From Lentzea indica (GTDB lineage Bacteria; Actinomycetota; Actinomycetes; Mycobacteriales; Pseudonocardiaceae), in the NCBI RefSeq assembly GCF_012184385.1, contig NZ_VSRL01000003.1, forward strand, positions 1-64,000: 64,000 bases of DNA, written 5' to 3'. The translations under genes were made by a program, and so were the position numbers. The notes beneath the pieces were generated by a model that did no database searches, was not told the origin of the DNA, and saw only the letters and a program-made list of their open reading frames with translations. Of the stretch, positions 14,830-36,443 are shown piece by piece (position 1 is the stretch's first letter; each line of letters opens with the position of its first letter).

Positions 14830-15308
14830 TGGCTACCTGGGCGGAGTTCGCAGCGGAACAGCCCGACCTGGCCGCGTTCGTGCAGGCCAGGTTCGCCGCG
14901 GACCGGCACGCGTTGATCGCGACCCTGCGCAAGGACGGCGCACCGCGGATCAGCGGCGTGGAGCCGGACTTCACGCGCGGTGAGCTGTGGGTCGGCATGA
15001 TGCTCGACTCGTTGAAGTCGCGCGACTTGCGCCGCGATCCGCGGTTCGCGTTGCACTGTCAGACCACGACCGCGTCCATGACCGAAGCCGGTGACGCGAA
15101 GATCAGCGGCACGGCCGAGTTCTGGACCGACAAGACGGACTACCTGAAAGACCTGTACGAACGCACCGGCTGGATGCCGGACGGCGGTGAGCTCGACCTC
15201 TTCCGGCTGGACGTCACCGAGGTCGTGTCGATCACCGTCGAGGGTGACGAGATGGTCGTCCTGTCCTGGCACGAGGGAAGGGGAATCCGGCGTGTCGCAA
15301 AGAAGTGA
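14829..15308 (+). CDS. Pyridoxamine 5'-phosphate oxidase family protein
   Basis: A 159-residue split-barrel flavoprotein: FAADRHALIATLRKDGAPRI followed by MLDSLKSRDLRRDPRFALH, features of the general PNPOx-like family rather than true PdxH. The ATG overlaps the stop of the TetR gene by one base, and its 3' end overlaps the next SDR by 17 bases, so TetR, PPOX and SDR form one operon. Probable cytoplasmic FMN- or F420-dependent reductase; substrate unknown. Confidence 0.83.
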   Translation: MATWAEFAAEQPDLAAFVQARFAADRHALIATLRKDGAPRISGVEPDFTRGELWVGMMLDSLKSRDLRRDPRFALHCQTTTASMTEAGDAKISGTAEFWTDKTDYLKDLYERTGWMPDGGELDLFRLDVTEVVSITVEGDEMVVLSWHEGRGIRRVAKK

Positions 15309-16212
15309 ACCCGATCTGAGCGGGAAGGTCGCCGTCGTCACCGGCGCCACCCGGGGTGCGGGCCGGGCGATCGCGGTCGAGCTCGGCGCGGCAGGGGCGA
15401 CCGTGTTCGTCGGTGGCCGGACCACTCGGACGCAGCAGTCTCCCGTCGGCCGGTCCGAGACGATCGAGGAGACGGCCGAGCTGGTGGATGCCGCCGGTGG
15501 CAAGGGGATCGCCATCCGGTGCGACTTCACCTCACCGTCCGATGTGGACGCTTTCGCGGCTCGGATCGATCGGCTCGACATCCTCGTGAACGACGTCTGG
15601 GGCGGGGAGAACCTCGTCGAGTGGGGGAAGTTCTGGGAGCACGACCTGGAGCGGCAGTTGCGGATGTGGCGCAACGGGGTTGAGTCGCATCTCGTGGCGC
15701 TGCACAAGTTGATGCCGCTCGTCGTGCGGTCTGACGATGGGCTCGTGGTCGAGGTGACCGATGGTGAGGACGGTGAGGCTTACTTTGTGAACCTCGCTTA
15801 CGACGCGGTGAAGTCGTCGGTGCGGCGGTTCGGTGAGGTGCTGGCCAAGGATCTTCGTGACGTTCCTGGTGTTACTGCTGTTGCTGCTACGCCTGGGTTT
15901 TTGCGGTCTGAGCAGATGTTGGAGACGTTTGGGGTTACTGAGGCCAACTGGCGGGATGCTGTTGCTGAGGTGCCCGACTATGCGGTGTCTGAGACTCCCC
16001 ACTATCTCGGGCGGGGGATTGCGTGTTTGGCGGCGGATTCTGGGCGGGCTCGGTTTTCTGGGGAGTGTTTGTCTTCTTGGCGGCTTATGCGGGAGTACGG
16101 GTTTCGGGATCTTGACGGGTCTCAGCCTGATTGGGGGCGGTGGTATGAGGAGGTGGTGAAGCCTCGGATGGCTGGGGTGGTTGTGGAGGCTGATCCTTTG
16201 TCGTATCGGTAG
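15292..16212 (+). CDS. SDR family oxidoreductase
   Basis: A 306-residue short-chain dehydrogenase with TGATRGAGRA as cofactor motif and a relaxed active site (FVNLAYDAVKSSVRRF, Tyr and Lys in place). GAGGGAAGGGG precedes GTG 15292, inside the end of the PPOX gene. The first half uses normal C-ending codons. From about 15700 onward codons increasingly end in T or G; in 16141-16200 I count 28 G, 17 T, 8 A and only 7 C, against 23 G, 19 C, 11 A and 7 T at 15301-15360. The drift runs into the repeat element that starts 18 bases after the stop. Confidence 0.87.
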   Translation: MSQRSEPDLSGKVAVVTGATRGAGRAIAVELGAAGATVFVGGRTTRTQQSPVGRSETIEETAELVDAAGGKGIAIRCDFTSPSDVDAFAARIDRLDILVNDVWGGENLVEWGKFWEHDLERQLRMWRNGVESHLVALHKLMPLVVRSDDGLVVEVTDGEDGEAYFVNLAYDAVKSSVRRFGEVLAKDLRDVPGVTAVAATPGFLRSEQMLETFGVTEANWRDAVAEVPDYAVSETPHYLGRGIACLAADSGRARFSGECLSSWRLMREYGFRDLDGSQPDWGRWYEEVVKPRMAGVVVEADPLSYR

Positions 16213-16230
16213 TCCCGCCTCGGGGTTTCT

Positions 16231-16459
16231 TGGGGCTCCGCCCCAAATCCCGCCAATCTGATCAAAGACCTGTCCAGCGCCGTCGGCGGGTTGATGGCAC
16301 GCCTGTTGTTTTTGGCGGCTTGCGGCTGCGAGGTGGGTTGCGTTGGTGTGGGGTGGTCCCGTCACGAGTCGTACGCGGCAACAGCATCGGCACGACTCGT
16401 GACGGGACCACCCCACCCGCGTTGTGTGTGAAAGCGGGGCTCGGCTTCGCCTTCGCGGT
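16231..16459. repeat. Convergent-junction hairpin element, copy 1
   Basis: Shared with 36057-36358. It starts with the GGGGCTCCGCCCC palindrome, then a conserved block around CCAATCTGATCAAAGACCTG, then a perfect 25-bp inverted repeat (16348-16372 and 16392-16416) with a 19-base loop, and ends with a GGCTTCGCCTTCGCGGT tail. It occupies most of the 272-base gap between the convergent SDR and response-regulator genes, so a bidirectional terminator role is likely. No ORF inside it looks real. Confidence 0.85.
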
Positions 16460-16484
16460 CGGCTTGCCCCCGGCCTCGCGGTGA

Positions 16485-17141
16485 TCAGGCGTCGCCGGGG
16501 CGGACCAAGCCGGTTTCGTAGGCCAGCACTACTGCCTGCACTCGGTCTCGCAGTTCCAGCTTTGCCAGAATTCGGCCCACGTGGGTCTTCACTGTTGCTT
16601 CGGACAGGAAGAGCTTCCTGGCGATCTCCGTGTTCGACAGGCCCTTCGCGATCAGCACCAGCACCTCGCGTTCCCGCTCGGTCAGGACGTCCAGGACGGT
16701 GGCGTCACGCAGTTCGCCGCCGCCGTCGCCCAGGAATCGGCCCAGCAGTCGCTTGGTCACCGATGGTGAGACCACGGCGTCGCCGGAGGCCACCGCGCGC
16801 AGGGCCGAGACCAGGTCTGAAGGTGGGGTGTCCTTCAGCAGGAAGCCGCTGGCGCCGTTGCGCAGGGCCGACAGGGCGTACTCGTCCATGTCGAAGGTGG
16901 TCATGACCAGCACCTTGGCAGTGTTGGCCTCGGCGATGCGCTTCGTTGCCTCCACGCCGTCCAGTACGGGCATGCGGACGTCCATCAGGACGACGTCGGG
17001 GCGCAGTTTGTCGGCCATTTGCACTGCGTCCAGGCCGTCGGCGGCTTCGCCGATGACGTCGATGTCCTCCTGCGCTCCCAGCACCATGCGGAAGCCCATG
17101 CGCATGAGTTCTTGGTCGTCGACCAGCAGCACCCGAATCAC
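16485..17141 (-). CDS. NarL/FixJ-family response regulator
   Basis: A 218-residue two-domain regulator. The receiver domain has acidic residues in LLVDDQE, phospho-Asp in VVLMDVRMPVLDG and Lys in FLLKDTPP; the C-terminal LuxR-type helix-turn-helix is LTEREREVLVLIAKGLSNTEIARKL. GTG 17141 is 4 bases from the kinase stop, so the pair is one operon with the kinase first. Codons at its 3' end often end in A or G, the mirror of the + strand C-to-T drift across the element. Target genes are not evident. Confidence 0.93.
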   Translation of the reverse strand: MIRVLLVDDQELMRMGFRMVLGAQEDIDVIGEAADGLDAVQMADKLRPDVVLMDVRMPVLDGVEATKRIAEANTAKVLVMTTFDMDEYALSALRNGASGFLLKDTPPSDLVSALRAVASGDAVVSPSVTKRLLGRFLGDGGGELRDATVLDVLTEREREVLVLIAKGLSNTEIARKLFLSEATVKTHVGRILAKLELRDRVQAVVLAYETGLVRPGDA

Positions 17142-17145
17142 TCGA

Positions 17146-18324
17146 TCACCCTATGGCCAGAGGGAAGATCGCGCGCACGCGCCAGCCTCCGCCGGGGTTG
17201 GGGCCTGCTTCGAACTCTCCGCCCAGCACTGCGGTCCTTTCCCTCATGCCGATCAGGCCGTTGCCGCCGGACACCTTGACCACGTCGTGGGGGGTGCCGA
17301 AGCCGTTGTCGATGATTTCCAGTCGTAGTTCTTCTGGCGTGCGGGCCAGGCGCACTAGCGCGGTTGTGCCTGCTCCGGCGTGTTTGATGGTGTTCGTGAG
17401 TGCTTCCTGCACGATTCGGTAGATGCTCAGGCCCACGCCGGCTGGGAGGTCGTCCACGTCGCCGGTGATCTCCAGGCGTACCGGGACGCCTGCCGCGCGG
17501 GTGTTTTCGGCCAGTTCGACCACGCCGCGTGCGTCTGGTTGGGGGGCCCATTGTGTTTCGGTGTCTTCGCTGCGGAGCACGCCCAGCAGGCGTCGCATCT
17601 CGGTCAGGGCCAGGCGGCCGGTTTCGGCGATGGTGCGGACGGCGTTCTCGGCGACTTCTGGCTGAGTCCTGATCGTGTAGGCGGCGCCGTCGGCGTGGAC
17701 GATCATCACGCTCACCGCGTGCGCGACCACGTCGTGCAGTTCGCGGGCGATTCGGGAGCGTTCCTCGCCCACTGCGATCTTGGCTTGCTGGTCGCGTTCG
17801 GTTTCGAGCAGCGCTAGGCGTTGTTCCAGTTCGCTTTGGTAGGCGCGGCGGGCGCCGATGAACTCGCCCATCGCCCAGCTGAAGCCGAAGATCACGAAGA
17901 CCATGAACACGAGGAACACGGCCTGGATGTCGCCGACCTGGAAGATCGCCCAGAGCAGTGTGCCCGCCAGCAGCCAGGCCGAGTAGATCAGGCCCGACCT
18001 GCGGCCGATGTACGCGACGAGCGTGTACAGCGCGATGGCCAATGCGAAGTCGGACATGCGGACCGGGATGCCGCTCTCGCCGCCGTGAGTGAAGAGTTGC
18101 AGGAAGGCGCCCGCGAGGATCAGGTAGCTGGTGCCTAGCGGGTGATATCGCCGGAACGGCAGCGGGCCCAGCATCAGCAACGTCACGGCGAGATACGCGG
18201 AGAACGACACACCACGGTCGATCGCGCTGACCGCGACGCCCATGTCGAAGATCAGCAAAAGCCCGGCGATCAGGGAGTCCCCGAACGCCGGGTGAGCCTT
18301 CATCCACAGGCTGAACCTCCGCAC
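17146..18324 (-). CDS. NarL-type sensor histidine kinase
   Basis: A 392-residue kinase with about five to six N-terminal membrane segments, a coiled region, the HisKA_3 box IARELHDVVAHAVSVMI and an ATPase domain ending GGNGLIGMRERTAVLGGEF. GTG 18324 gives the full membrane domain. It is the cognate partner of the downstream response regulator. There is no large extracellular domain, so it probably senses a signal in or at the membrane, as DesK-like kinases do. It diverges from the membrane/GntR operon at 18442. Confidence 0.92.
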   Translation of the reverse strand: MRRFSLWMKAHPAFGDSLIAGLLLIFDMGVAVSAIDRGVSFSAYLAVTLLMLGPLPFRRYHPLGTSYLILAGAFLQLFTHGGESGIPVRMSDFALAIALYTLVAYIGRRSGLIYSAWLLAGTLLWAIFQVGDIQAVFLVFMVFVIFGFSWAMGEFIGARRAYQSELEQRLALLETERDQQAKIAVGEERSRIARELHDVVAHAVSVMIVHADGAAYTIRTQPEVAENAVRTIAETGRLALTEMRRLLGVLRSEDTETQWAPQPDARGVVELAENTRAAGVPVRLEITGDVDDLPAGVGLSIYRIVQEALTNTIKHAGAGTTALVRLARTPEELRLEIIDNGFGTPHDVVKVSGGNGLIGMRERTAVLGGEFEAGPNPGGGWRVRAIFPLAIG

Positions 18325-35169: not shown

Positions 35170-35949
35170 ATGGACCTGAACGCGGACCTCGGTGAGGGCT
35201 TCGGCCACTGGACCTTGGGCGATGATCGTGCGCTCTTGTCGGTGGTGACCAGCGCAAACGTTGCCTGCGGGTACCACGCGGGGGATGCCGACACGATGCG
35301 CTCGGTGTGTTCTCTCGCTGCTTCCGCGGGCGTCGCCGTCGGGGCTCACGTGGGGTATCGGGACCTCGCCGGGTTCGGGCGGCGGTTCATCGACGTTGCT
35401 CCGGACACCCTGACGAACGAGGTGTTGGCTCAGCTCGGGGCTTTGTCCGCGTTCGCTCGTGCCGCTGGGACTCGGGTGTCGTATGTGAAGCCGCATGGGG
35501 CGCTTTACAACGCTTTGGTTCGGCATGAGGCCCAGGCTGATGCCGTGGTGGATGCGGTTCGGATGTTCGATCCGACCCTTGCTGTGTTGGGGCCGCCTGG
35601 GGCGGTGTGGTTGAAGCGGGCCTCGGTGGCTGGGTTGCGGGTTTGGCACGAGGCGTTTGCGGATCGGGCCTACACGGATGCTGGGACGTTGGTGCCTCGG
35701 GGGCAGTCTGGGGCTGTGTTGCGGGATCCGGCTGAGATTGCTTCTCGGTGTGTGCTGCTTGCTACCGAGGGGTGGGTTCGGAGCGTTTCTGGGCGGCCGG
35801 TGCGTGTTCCTGCTGACTCCATCTGTGTGCATGGGGATACCGCCAACGCTGTGGAGATTGCTCGGGCGGTTCGGGCTGCTTTGGAGGGGGCTGGGGTTGT
35901 GGTGGGGCGGGTTGAGTCGCCGCTTCGGCACACTCGGTACGCGGGTTGA
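35170..35949 (+). CDS. pxpA: 5-oxoprolinase subunit A (LamB/YcsF family)
   Basis: 259 residues, the full length of PxpA. Family motifs are MDLNADLGEGFGHW at the N-terminus, SANVACGYHAGDADTM, VGAHVGYRD and YVKPHGALYN. With PxpB and PxpC it hydrolyses 5-oxoproline to glutamate using ATP; pxpB and pxpC are not in this window. GGAGGG precedes ATG 35170. Codon use changes along the gene: 35641-35700 has about 25 G, 14 T, 14 C and 7 A, with many T-ending codons, unlike the start of the gene. The gene runs toward copy 2 of the hairpin element. Confidence 0.92.
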   Translation: MDLNADLGEGFGHWTLGDDRALLSVVTSANVACGYHAGDADTMRSVCSLAASAGVAVGAHVGYRDLAGFGRRFIDVAPDTLTNEVLAQLGALSAFARAAGTRVSYVKPHGALYNALVRHEAQADAVVDAVRMFDPTLAVLGPPGAVWLKRASVAGLRVWHEAFADRAYTDAGTLVPRGQSGAVLRDPAEIASRCVLLATEGWVRSVSGRPVRVPADSICVHGDTANAVEIARAVRAALEGAGVVVGRVESPLRHTRYAG

Positions 35950-36056
35950 GTGTGGTTGGCGCGTGGGTTGCGTTGGCCGTCTCCCTGTTTCGTTGGCGGC
36001 TGCCGGTTTCGTGTCCGTAGGTGGTCGGGTTGCGTGCTGGTGTTCCTGCTGCTTTC

Positions 36057-36358
36057 TGGGGCTCCGCCCCAGACCCCGCCAATCTGATCAAAGACCTGTC
36101 CAGCGCCGCGCGCGCGTTGATGGCACGCCGGTTGAGTTGGGCGGGGTGCGGCTGCGTAGGTGGGTTGCGTTTGGCGTGGGGTGGTCCCGTCACGAGTCGC
36201 ACGGAGGCAGCCACACCCGAGGGGTCAGGTCAAGTCGACGAAAAGCGTGTCGACTTGACCTGACCCCTCGGGCGCGGCAGGACGCGTCGGTACGACTCGT
36301 GACGGGACCACCCCACCAGCTGGCTGTGTGAAAAGCGGCTCGGCTCCGCCTTCGCGGT
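36057..36358. repeat. Convergent-junction hairpin element, copy 2, with nested hairpin
   Basis: It carries the same modules as 16231-16459: GGGGCTCCGCCCC, the CCAATCTGATCAAAGACCTG block, and a perfect 24-bp outer inverted repeat (36176-36199 and 36293-36316) identical in sequence to that of copy 1. The loop holds a second perfect 24-bp inverted repeat (36216-36239 and 36249-36272; arm contains GGGGTCAGGTCAAGTCGAC) with a 9-base loop, absent from copy 1. The element lies in a 494-base gap between convergent pxpA and the ROK gene; the rest of the gap (35950-36056 and 36359-36443) shows nothing recognisable. Confidence 0.87.
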
Positions 36359-36443
36359 TGAAGATCGCCATTACTGTCAGACCCGCTCAGTACGTTGGGT
36401 CGCGGGGGACACGAAATCCAAGGGGACCCTTGCGGGAGCGTGC

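Follow-up and report, generated by a model that had tools for sequence, protein, structure and literature searches.

What makes one strand of a bacterial chromosome poor in cytosine over a few kilobases, across genes that run in opposite directions? The question is raised by the first 64,000 nucleotides of contig NZ_VSRL01000003.1 from Lentzea indica (hereafter the window), in which such zones lie beside two copies of a structured repeat, referred to below as the element. A reading made from the sequence alone had described a graded bias around copy 1 and attributed it to a local mutator acting near a hairpin. We followed the element through the window, its own genome (G000) and 23 further genomes of the genus. 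It is near certain that the C-poor zones follow the repeat: around the copies, the sense strand of the element is depleted of C, replaced mostly by T and less by G, for about 1 kb on the upstream side and 2-3 kb on the downstream side.

Cytosine loss at two copies in the window

The two copies and their neighbours are arranged as follows.

15292-16212, + strand: SDR-family gene (adh_short, Pfam PF00106, E=4.9e-19), upstream of copy 1
16226-16464, + strand: element copy 1, edges set by anchoring (query used for similarity searches, 16213-16485)
16485-17141, - strand: LuxR-type response regulator (Pfam Response_reg and GerE), downstream of copy 1
17146-18303, - strand: histidine kinase (Pfam HisKA_3), downstream of copy 1
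35170-35949, + strand: LamB/YcsF family gene (Pfam PF03746, E=5.5e-99), upstream of copy 2
36053-36363, + strand: element copy 2, with a second stem nested in the loop
36444-37322, - strand: ROK-family gene (Pfam PF00480, E=1.5e-57), downstream of copy 2

The base counts given by the sequence-only reading are exact (23 G, 19 C, 11 A and 7 T at 15301-15360; 28 G, 7 C, 8 A and 17 T at 16141-16200), and both a recount and skew windows agree with its description of C loss with T and G gain on the + strand toward copy 1. In 300-nt windows, GC skew near this copy climbs from about 0.1 to 0.385 at 15900-16199 and AT skew drops to -0.46 at 16050-16349, and the peak adjoins the element. The window-wide baseline, taken in 400-nt steps over the 64 kb, has a mean GC skew of 0.000 (standard deviation, sd, 0.077) and a mean AT skew of 0.003 (sd 0.154). 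When the 64 kb were ranked by GC skew minus AT skew, after merging of overlapping windows, the top two peaks fell at 35601-36000 (0.877) and 15801-16200 (0.787), each directly 5' of one element copy.

Codon third positions carry the same gradient. T/(T+C) rises by thirds toward copy 1 in the SDR gene (0.20, 0.49, 0.80) and toward copy 2 in the YcsF gene (0.27, 0.65, 0.77). Both genes were overlooked by a codon-usage gene caller trained on the own genome, because of this codon shift. Beyond the copies, the minus-strand genes use more A-ending codons, as had been claimed for the regulator and the kinase. A/(A+G) is 0.26 in the response regulator, against 0.03-0.09 in 19 of 24 orthologs; it is 0.32 in the whole kinase gene (0.44 in the half nearer copy 1, 0.20 in the far half) and is also raised, at 0.40, in the ROK-family gene. 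The biased zone had been placed at 15700-17700. Its location stands, but its width was underestimated, since the downstream arm runs for about 2-3 kb, at copy 2 and at copies across the genus as well.

Oriented skew across copies and orthologs

The same oriented picture is repeated over the copies of the own genome, at least 40 counting fragments. In the frame of the element, T/(T+C) per 100 nt upstream is 0.55, 0.53, 0.48, 0.44 and 0.41, with 0.33-0.37 beyond 1.1 kb. Downstream it starts at 0.42, continues at 0.36-0.40 and reaches about 0.33 by 2 kb; this arm is flat or slightly humped at 0.5-1 kb and is not steepest at the element. The skew thus carries the same sign on both sides, and at least 99 other loci, found by exact core match and including orthologous copies that are not independent, closely reproduce the profile. 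Among 133 copies with a left part, those with 600 or 800 nt of flank or more were scored for sign. The expected sign was found in 108 of 110 upstream flanks (own genome 28/28, others 80/82) and in 94 of 99 downstream flanks (25/26 and 69/73, respectively); 667 control windows had a mean of -0.008 (sd 0.15). At third positions read on the element strand, upstream co-oriented genes show T/(T+C) of 0.67, 0.60, 0.43 and 0.31, with 0.11-0.16 beyond 1 kb, and the sign of the skew is that of the element in genes of either direction. Strongly shifted 80-codon windows lie mostly within 2 kb of a copy (97 of 105 for T, 120 of 124 for A), compared with 1253 of all 5435 windows.

Orthologs with and without the element were then compared. 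In the last third of the SDR gene, T/(T+C) is 0.80, 0.51 and 0.21 in the three genomes that carry the element there (G000, G007 and G011), and 0.02-0.12 in 20 of the 21 orthologs without a detected left core; the SDR shift is therefore derived. For the regulator, A/(A+G) is 0.36 in G007 and 0.11 in G011; it is 0.14 in G003, where the right half of an element is kept, and the 19 low orthologs mentioned above have no intact element. The YcsF locus of G002 offers an inversion. There the downstream element is inverted; the last third of the gene has T/(T+C) of 0.02, and A/(A+G) stands at 0.71 and 0.63 in the last two thirds, the highest of 24 genomes. Ten genomes without a detected element, however, have A/(A+G) of 0.29-0.55 at third positions in the middle third of YcsF, and the inverted G002 locus is therefore supporting evidence only.

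Substitutions at the SDR gene were polarised against 20 of the 24 genomes, leaving out G000, G007, G011 and G013. Compared with the majority of these orthologs, at third positions of the G000 gene 37 of 108 C have become T and 18 have become G, 13 of 96 G have become T, and no G>A is seen; a single C>T is found in each of the unshifted genes of G021 and G002. The polarised change at this gene is mainly C to T, although C>G is also frequent in little-shifted orthologs (21/108 in G003). The YcsF background comprised 14 of the 24 genomes and was chosen after the T/(T+C) thirds of the orthologs were known; it left out the three or four derived ones (G000, G007, G011, G002) and the raised-A G006, G012, G013, G014, G016 and G020. 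SDR and YcsF paralogs (L123, L148-L153; 53-63% identity) were dropped. In the protein tree, G000 was joined to G007 (93/87), with G011, G013 and G002 outside and 12 of 21 inner branches left open. A is depleted near copies as well (0.007-0.009 at 4-fold sites near them, against 0.025-0.026 far away). The products differ by arm, being mostly T upstream and G as well downstream, a difference that may reflect codon selection.

Two general effects can be set aside. A trend common to all 3' ends is ruled out by 264 genes more than 4 kb from copies (85 with convergent ends), in which third-position T/(T+C) remains flat at 0.09-0.14 all the way to the stop. A second, unrelated multi-copy hairpin repeat was found in G013, at L117:2407-2620 and 39 further places (consensus ACGCGGGGgCCCcgCGTac...GTAGGGCCCCCGCGT; at least 43 matches, 40 of 134 candidates scored). 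The flanks of its 40 copies have no skew; being a hairpin repeat is therefore insufficient, and the idea that any of them produces the effect is ruled out. Copies whose long stem is absent from the assembly, where collapse during assembly is possible, still have upstream third-position T/(T+C) of 0.28 (L056), 0.62 (L059) and 0.58 (L065). These three are clear deletions; among the other flagged copies, L057 and L064 are cut or split and the stem of L066 has diverged. With stem-less copies shifted, the other hairpin family inert and the two strands of the element folding equally well (see below), the hairpin is not supported as the cause that the sequence-only reading had seen in it. Its broader proposal of a localized, strand-specific mutational effect is borne out: the effect is tied to the element by its sign, which follows element orientation, by the contrast between orthologs and by change that is mainly C to T.

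Several observations weigh against so close a tie to the element. Seven copies have the wrong sign on one side (two upstream, five downstream), and 8 of the 105 windows with a strong T shift lie more than 2 kb from a copy. One of these, in L047 near 3080, has a left-extension remnant (L047:3551-3731); no such remnant was seen at the distant T-shifted sites in L041 and L066. Among the 10 copies fetched from G002, L257, with its left part missing, has no upstream shift and L258 little upstream T shift, while L254 and L255 have little or no downstream shift. The ortholog contrast, which holds for most element-free genes, also fails at places. In G013 the SDR gene is shifted (0.38, 0.40 and 0.35 by thirds), with no element of the first family or remnant found, and the regulator has A/(A+G) of 0.36 without an intact element; the second hairpin repeat sits at this SDR locus. 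The G007 YcsF gene (L128) reaches 0.56 in its last third with only left-extension remnants present, and the raised A of element-free YcsF genes has been noted above. The shifted genes of G013 and G007, and the site in L047, are possibly scars of copies since lost. Lastly, while most silent C next to it have disappeared, the body of the element is itself hardly changed (C>T 0.060, G>A 0.035-0.046, rates that for G000 cover as much as 60 and 80 nt of flank at positions with a majority base), which counts against an exposed strand unless selection or conversion restores the sequence.

Structure, copies and distribution of the element

The element belongs to a family of non-coding, structured repeats dispersed in Lentzea genomes. 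Its conserved unit is about 240-310 nt long, and up to about 640 nt are common to two 99%-identical copies in G002 (the twins). The following parts were recognized.

16232-16244, + strand: short GC hairpin GGGGCTCCGCCCC at the left end of copy 1, seen in an alignment of 28 copies
16254-16303, + strand: most conserved core of copy 1, CAATCTGATC ... GTTGATGGCACGCC, with columns invariant or nearly so in 43 genus copies
16348-16416: long stem of copy 1, with 25-nt arms (16348-16372 and 16392-16416) that are 100% complementary
35993-36052, + strand: left extension (TTGGCGGCTGCCGGTTTCGTGTCCGTAGGTGG...) of copy 2, common to many copies, 60 nt aligned; it may reach further left

The left extension is longer in the G002 twins, which share it. 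As in copy 2, the loop of the long stem holds a second, nested stem in many other copies. Copy 2 folds far better than 100 shuffles (z-scores of -10.0 for the + strand and -10.7 for the - strand as DNA, -11.3 for the + strand as RNA), and the two DNA strands of the element fold equally well (-105.9 and -106.1 kcal/mol). Rfam gave no match at gathering score across the window, although it holds two copies, and the plasmid collection gave no match. In the left domain, covariation found no support, with changes on both sides at none of 13 pairs. The variable nested stems were judged by inspection of the alignment alone: the sequence of the nested stem (about 36215-36272 in the window) varies between copies, yet it looks fully paired in most of them. 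This pattern points to correction templated by the hairpin or to selection on the fold.

In the own genome, 106 blastn matches correspond to at least 40 copies or fragments, 34 with the left part (40 of 130 candidates scored; copy counts in all genomes are lower bounds). Matches were present in 22 of the 23 other genus genomes, those of G018 being weak (E 2.5e-6), and in 7 of 36 genomes outside the genus, all at E 1.9e-5 or weaker. Of the at least 99 further loci from the pattern scan of named genomes, 80 are listed by name, 79 from Lentzea and one from 'Nocardia sp. NRRL S-836'. Placement is not random: of 133 copies, 85 come after a gene of their own orientation and 44 are flanked by genes called as convergent. 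At the position of copy 1, G021 has an empty site, where the edges of the element are not resolved to the base.

The cores at the SDR and YcsF sites look characteristic of the species, not of the location. G000 has AAAGACCTGTCC at both, with AAAGACCGGCC at the SDR site of G007 and CAGGACCGGGCC at the YcsF site of G011. Recent spread, conversion between copies, repeated insertion or selection could each account for this. Copies at contig ends are interrupted at fixed points next to the element by apparent insertion sequences, on the left in L003, L010, L013, L017, L022 and L025 and on the right in L015, L020, L021 and L064. The inserted sequence on the left ends in a transposase tail that, read by eye, we take to resemble the ISAs1 family. 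Three of the interrupted sides, 174-192 nt long, are unshifted. To the right of the G002 twins lies a minisatellite of about 25 nt (GGCGAGACAGGAGCCCAGCCGGTG; L253 4826-5141, L254 4578-4820).

Candidate causes and known systems

Dependence on gene direction separates the two arms. The test kept 99 of the 133 copies, those with an upstream gene of 300 nt or more no further than 450 nt away and, for 'away' genes, with a non-negative codon score. Upstream, the median T-over-C log-odds relative to baseline was 2.03 where the gene runs toward the element (n=83) and 0.42 where it runs away (n=16; p=2.9e-7); downstream, the same groups gave 1.12 (n=62) and 1.07 (n=12; p=0.73). Because the downstream arm is alike in both groups, element age is not a likely reason for the upstream difference. 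When 8 of the 13 long 'away' genes were searched against Pfam, all 8 matched, one marginally (LpdA-like oxidoreductase, DapD, GH20, L25 twice, LeuA, GDSL and MucB_RseB). From these comparisons, the upstream arm depends on transcription directed at the element, and the downstream arm appears to belong to the element itself. The sequence-only reading had dismissed transcription alone as an explanation; that dismissal is not supported, the upstream arm being strong only beside genes directed toward the element, and independence of gene direction is confined to the downstream arm.

Replication direction is an unlikely cause. In the complete genome of G002, with dnaA at 2,899,512, 11 of 14 places are oriented with the presumed fork (bidirectional from dnaA, with an assumed terminus position), but those at 3030520 and 6838438 oppose it and yet show the shift in their own frame, weakly in the second case; flanks were fetched for 10 of the 14. 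Symmetric resection of a break is ruled out as well, since it would flip the sign between the sides and an equal sign is found on both.

The explanation that we tentatively prefer, at somewhat less than an even chance, is that transcription or R-loops expose the sense strand of the element to deamination. RNA polymerases moving in the direction of the element would stall and form R-loops at and before it, leaving the sense strand unpaired (upstream arm), and in the downstream arm rightward transcription would leave the element, or run past it, into the DNA beyond. Deamination of the displaced non-template strand would have no sequence preference. Changes would be fixed chiefly at silent sites, selection probably just filtering the products, and copies would be kept alike through recent spread, conversion or selection. 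C-to-T change on the non-template strand is what upstream co-oriented genes show, where the polarised change is C>T. Some points tell against this account. No sigma-70-type promoter was seen in a scan of copy 1 and copy 2, and the rightward transcription behind the downstream arm is assumed. Since ordinary transcription running to the end of a gene leaves no comparable trace, some special property of the element is required. The 16 'away' copies include mutual orthologs (one 1374-nt gene four times) and are not independent, and C is somewhat reduced in upstream flanks with an 'away' gene as well (0.33 within 500 nt, 0.47 beyond 3.5 kb).

The rival explanations meet the same evidence with less success. 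A host or element-specific nickase could cut, within the element, the strand opposite the sense strand, with helicases and nucleases widening the nick to a gap on either side and the sense strand being deaminated or refilled by an error-prone polymerase. This fairly unlikely scheme accounts for the equal sign on both sides and for the downstream arm's indifference to gene direction, and the C>G found beside C>T in the SDR gene (18 and 37 of 108 third-position C) fits repair via abasic sites; C>G is nevertheless also common in the little-shifted G003 ortholog, and the upstream dependence on a gene directed toward the element is not predicted. The two partner families that were searched fail too, no search for other nickases having been made. 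The Y1_Tnp domain (PF01797), the mark of RAYT, was found in 11 of 24 Lentzea genomes and not in the other 13, most of which have copies and one of which is G002, so RAYT is rejected; a retron-type reverse transcriptase is likewise rejected, as RVT_1 was found in 12 of 24 genomes and in none of the copy-bearing G001, G010, G014 and G020. Alternatively, the element might prime one-directional strand-displacement synthesis, with RNA on the upstream template and synthesis rightward, as in the mitochondrial D-loop. We consider this unlikely, although it would unite a transcription-dependent upstream arm with a direction-independent downstream arm of 2-3 kb. R-loop-dependent (constitutive stable) replication, which reportedly occurs in E. 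coli, would be a parallel. Another comes from three fish mitogenomes, in which, according to PMC4182315, inversion of the control region accompanies inverted skew. The synthesis is putative, and a downstream arm that is not steepest at the element speaks against it.

A sense-strand hairpin that blocks copying polymerases would leave a single-strand gap 5' of itself at any fork direction. It would predict an upstream gap decaying over about 1 kb and independence of the fork, in line with the G002 copy 131 kb from dnaA that opposes the presumed fork and is shifted in its own frame. As the strands fold equally, the opposite sign would be expected downstream, and none is seen; stem-less copies retain the effect, the other 40-copy hairpin family has none, and the role of upstream gene direction is not predicted, all of which makes this block very unlikely. 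That there is no mutator at all, and that the element inserts into G+T-rich sequence already present or that selection (on codon use or transcript features) shapes the flanks, is most improbable. The non-random placement of copies speaks for it; the derived SDR shift, the flat profiles of distant 3' ends, whether or not these are convergent, and a sign that tracks the element across genes of both strands speak against it. About as improbable is a cytosine deaminase acting on DNA near the element. C is indeed the main base lost, but C-to-T change has no neighbour-base preference (odds ratios of 4-12 across the four 5' neighbours and 5.5-9.8 across the four 3' neighbours), which counts against a motif-specific, APOBEC/AID-like enzyme, and A is depleted too. 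In a bolder combination, to which we give a low probability, each copy would act as a chromosomal D-loop, with strand displacement that is primed by an R-loop and proceeds one way. The family would then be an oriented mutator of kilobase range that spares its own sequence but changes the codon usage of neighbouring genes strand by strand, with a scar that outlasts the element.

Strand-biased deamination is already known from transcription, replication and mitochondria, and what is new is its tie to a repeat. Our search of open-licence papers brought up no account of a dispersed repeat in bacteria that, according to its own orientation, subjects kilobases of neighbouring genes to such deamination. 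New here also is that the upstream arm appears to require a gene transcribed toward the repeat, whereas the downstream arm does not. Strand skew in bacteria is usually taken as a record of replication and transcription direction, and a small repeat appears to override both locally. Codon usage, gene finding and skew-based inference can mislead near such repeats. With at least 40 copies or fragments in two orientations, the own genome is a natural experiment on how long strands remain unpaired near a defined site. Should an RNA-DNA hybrid prove responsible, dozens of comparable sites on the chromosomes of the genus would be available for asking why transcription becomes mutagenic.

The closest known process is mutagenesis by transcription and R-loops. 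C-to-T change on the non-transcribed strand during transcription is said to occur in E. coli. Deamination of the non-template strand is discussed in PMC10030826, and deamination on the strand displaced by dCas9 R-loops in PMC6411842. The Lentzea zones share C-to-T change on a strand that RNA would displace and, in the upstream arm, dependence on transcription direction; they differ in being tied to one repeat, in extending for 1-3 kb, downstream regardless of gene direction, and in being fixed genus-wide. Repetitive extragenic palindromes (REP), bacterial interspersed mosaic elements (BIME) and miniature inverted-repeat transposable elements (MITE) are many-copy, intergenic, structured palindromes and targets of insertion sequences. 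The element is likewise multi-copy, intergenic and structured, but REP units are short palindromes of 20-40 nt, whereas it is much longer and composite. MITE are marked by terminal inverted repeats and a target-site duplication; the element has an internal long inverted repeat and, at the empty site of G021, ends that are placed approximately. No description of a mutation gradient in REP flanks was found in open-licence papers. The second hairpin repeat of G013 is also dispersed and hairpin-bearing in the same genus, and differs in its flat flanks. The mitochondrial control region resembles the element as an oriented element with strand skew that inverts when it is inverted; the Lentzea effect is local (kilobases), occurs dozens of times per chromosome and is bacterial, and a role of replication in it is conjectural. 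Repeat-induced point mutation of fungi also links C-to-T change to repeats, but in Lentzea the repeat is spared, its flanks are hit, and only one strand is affected.

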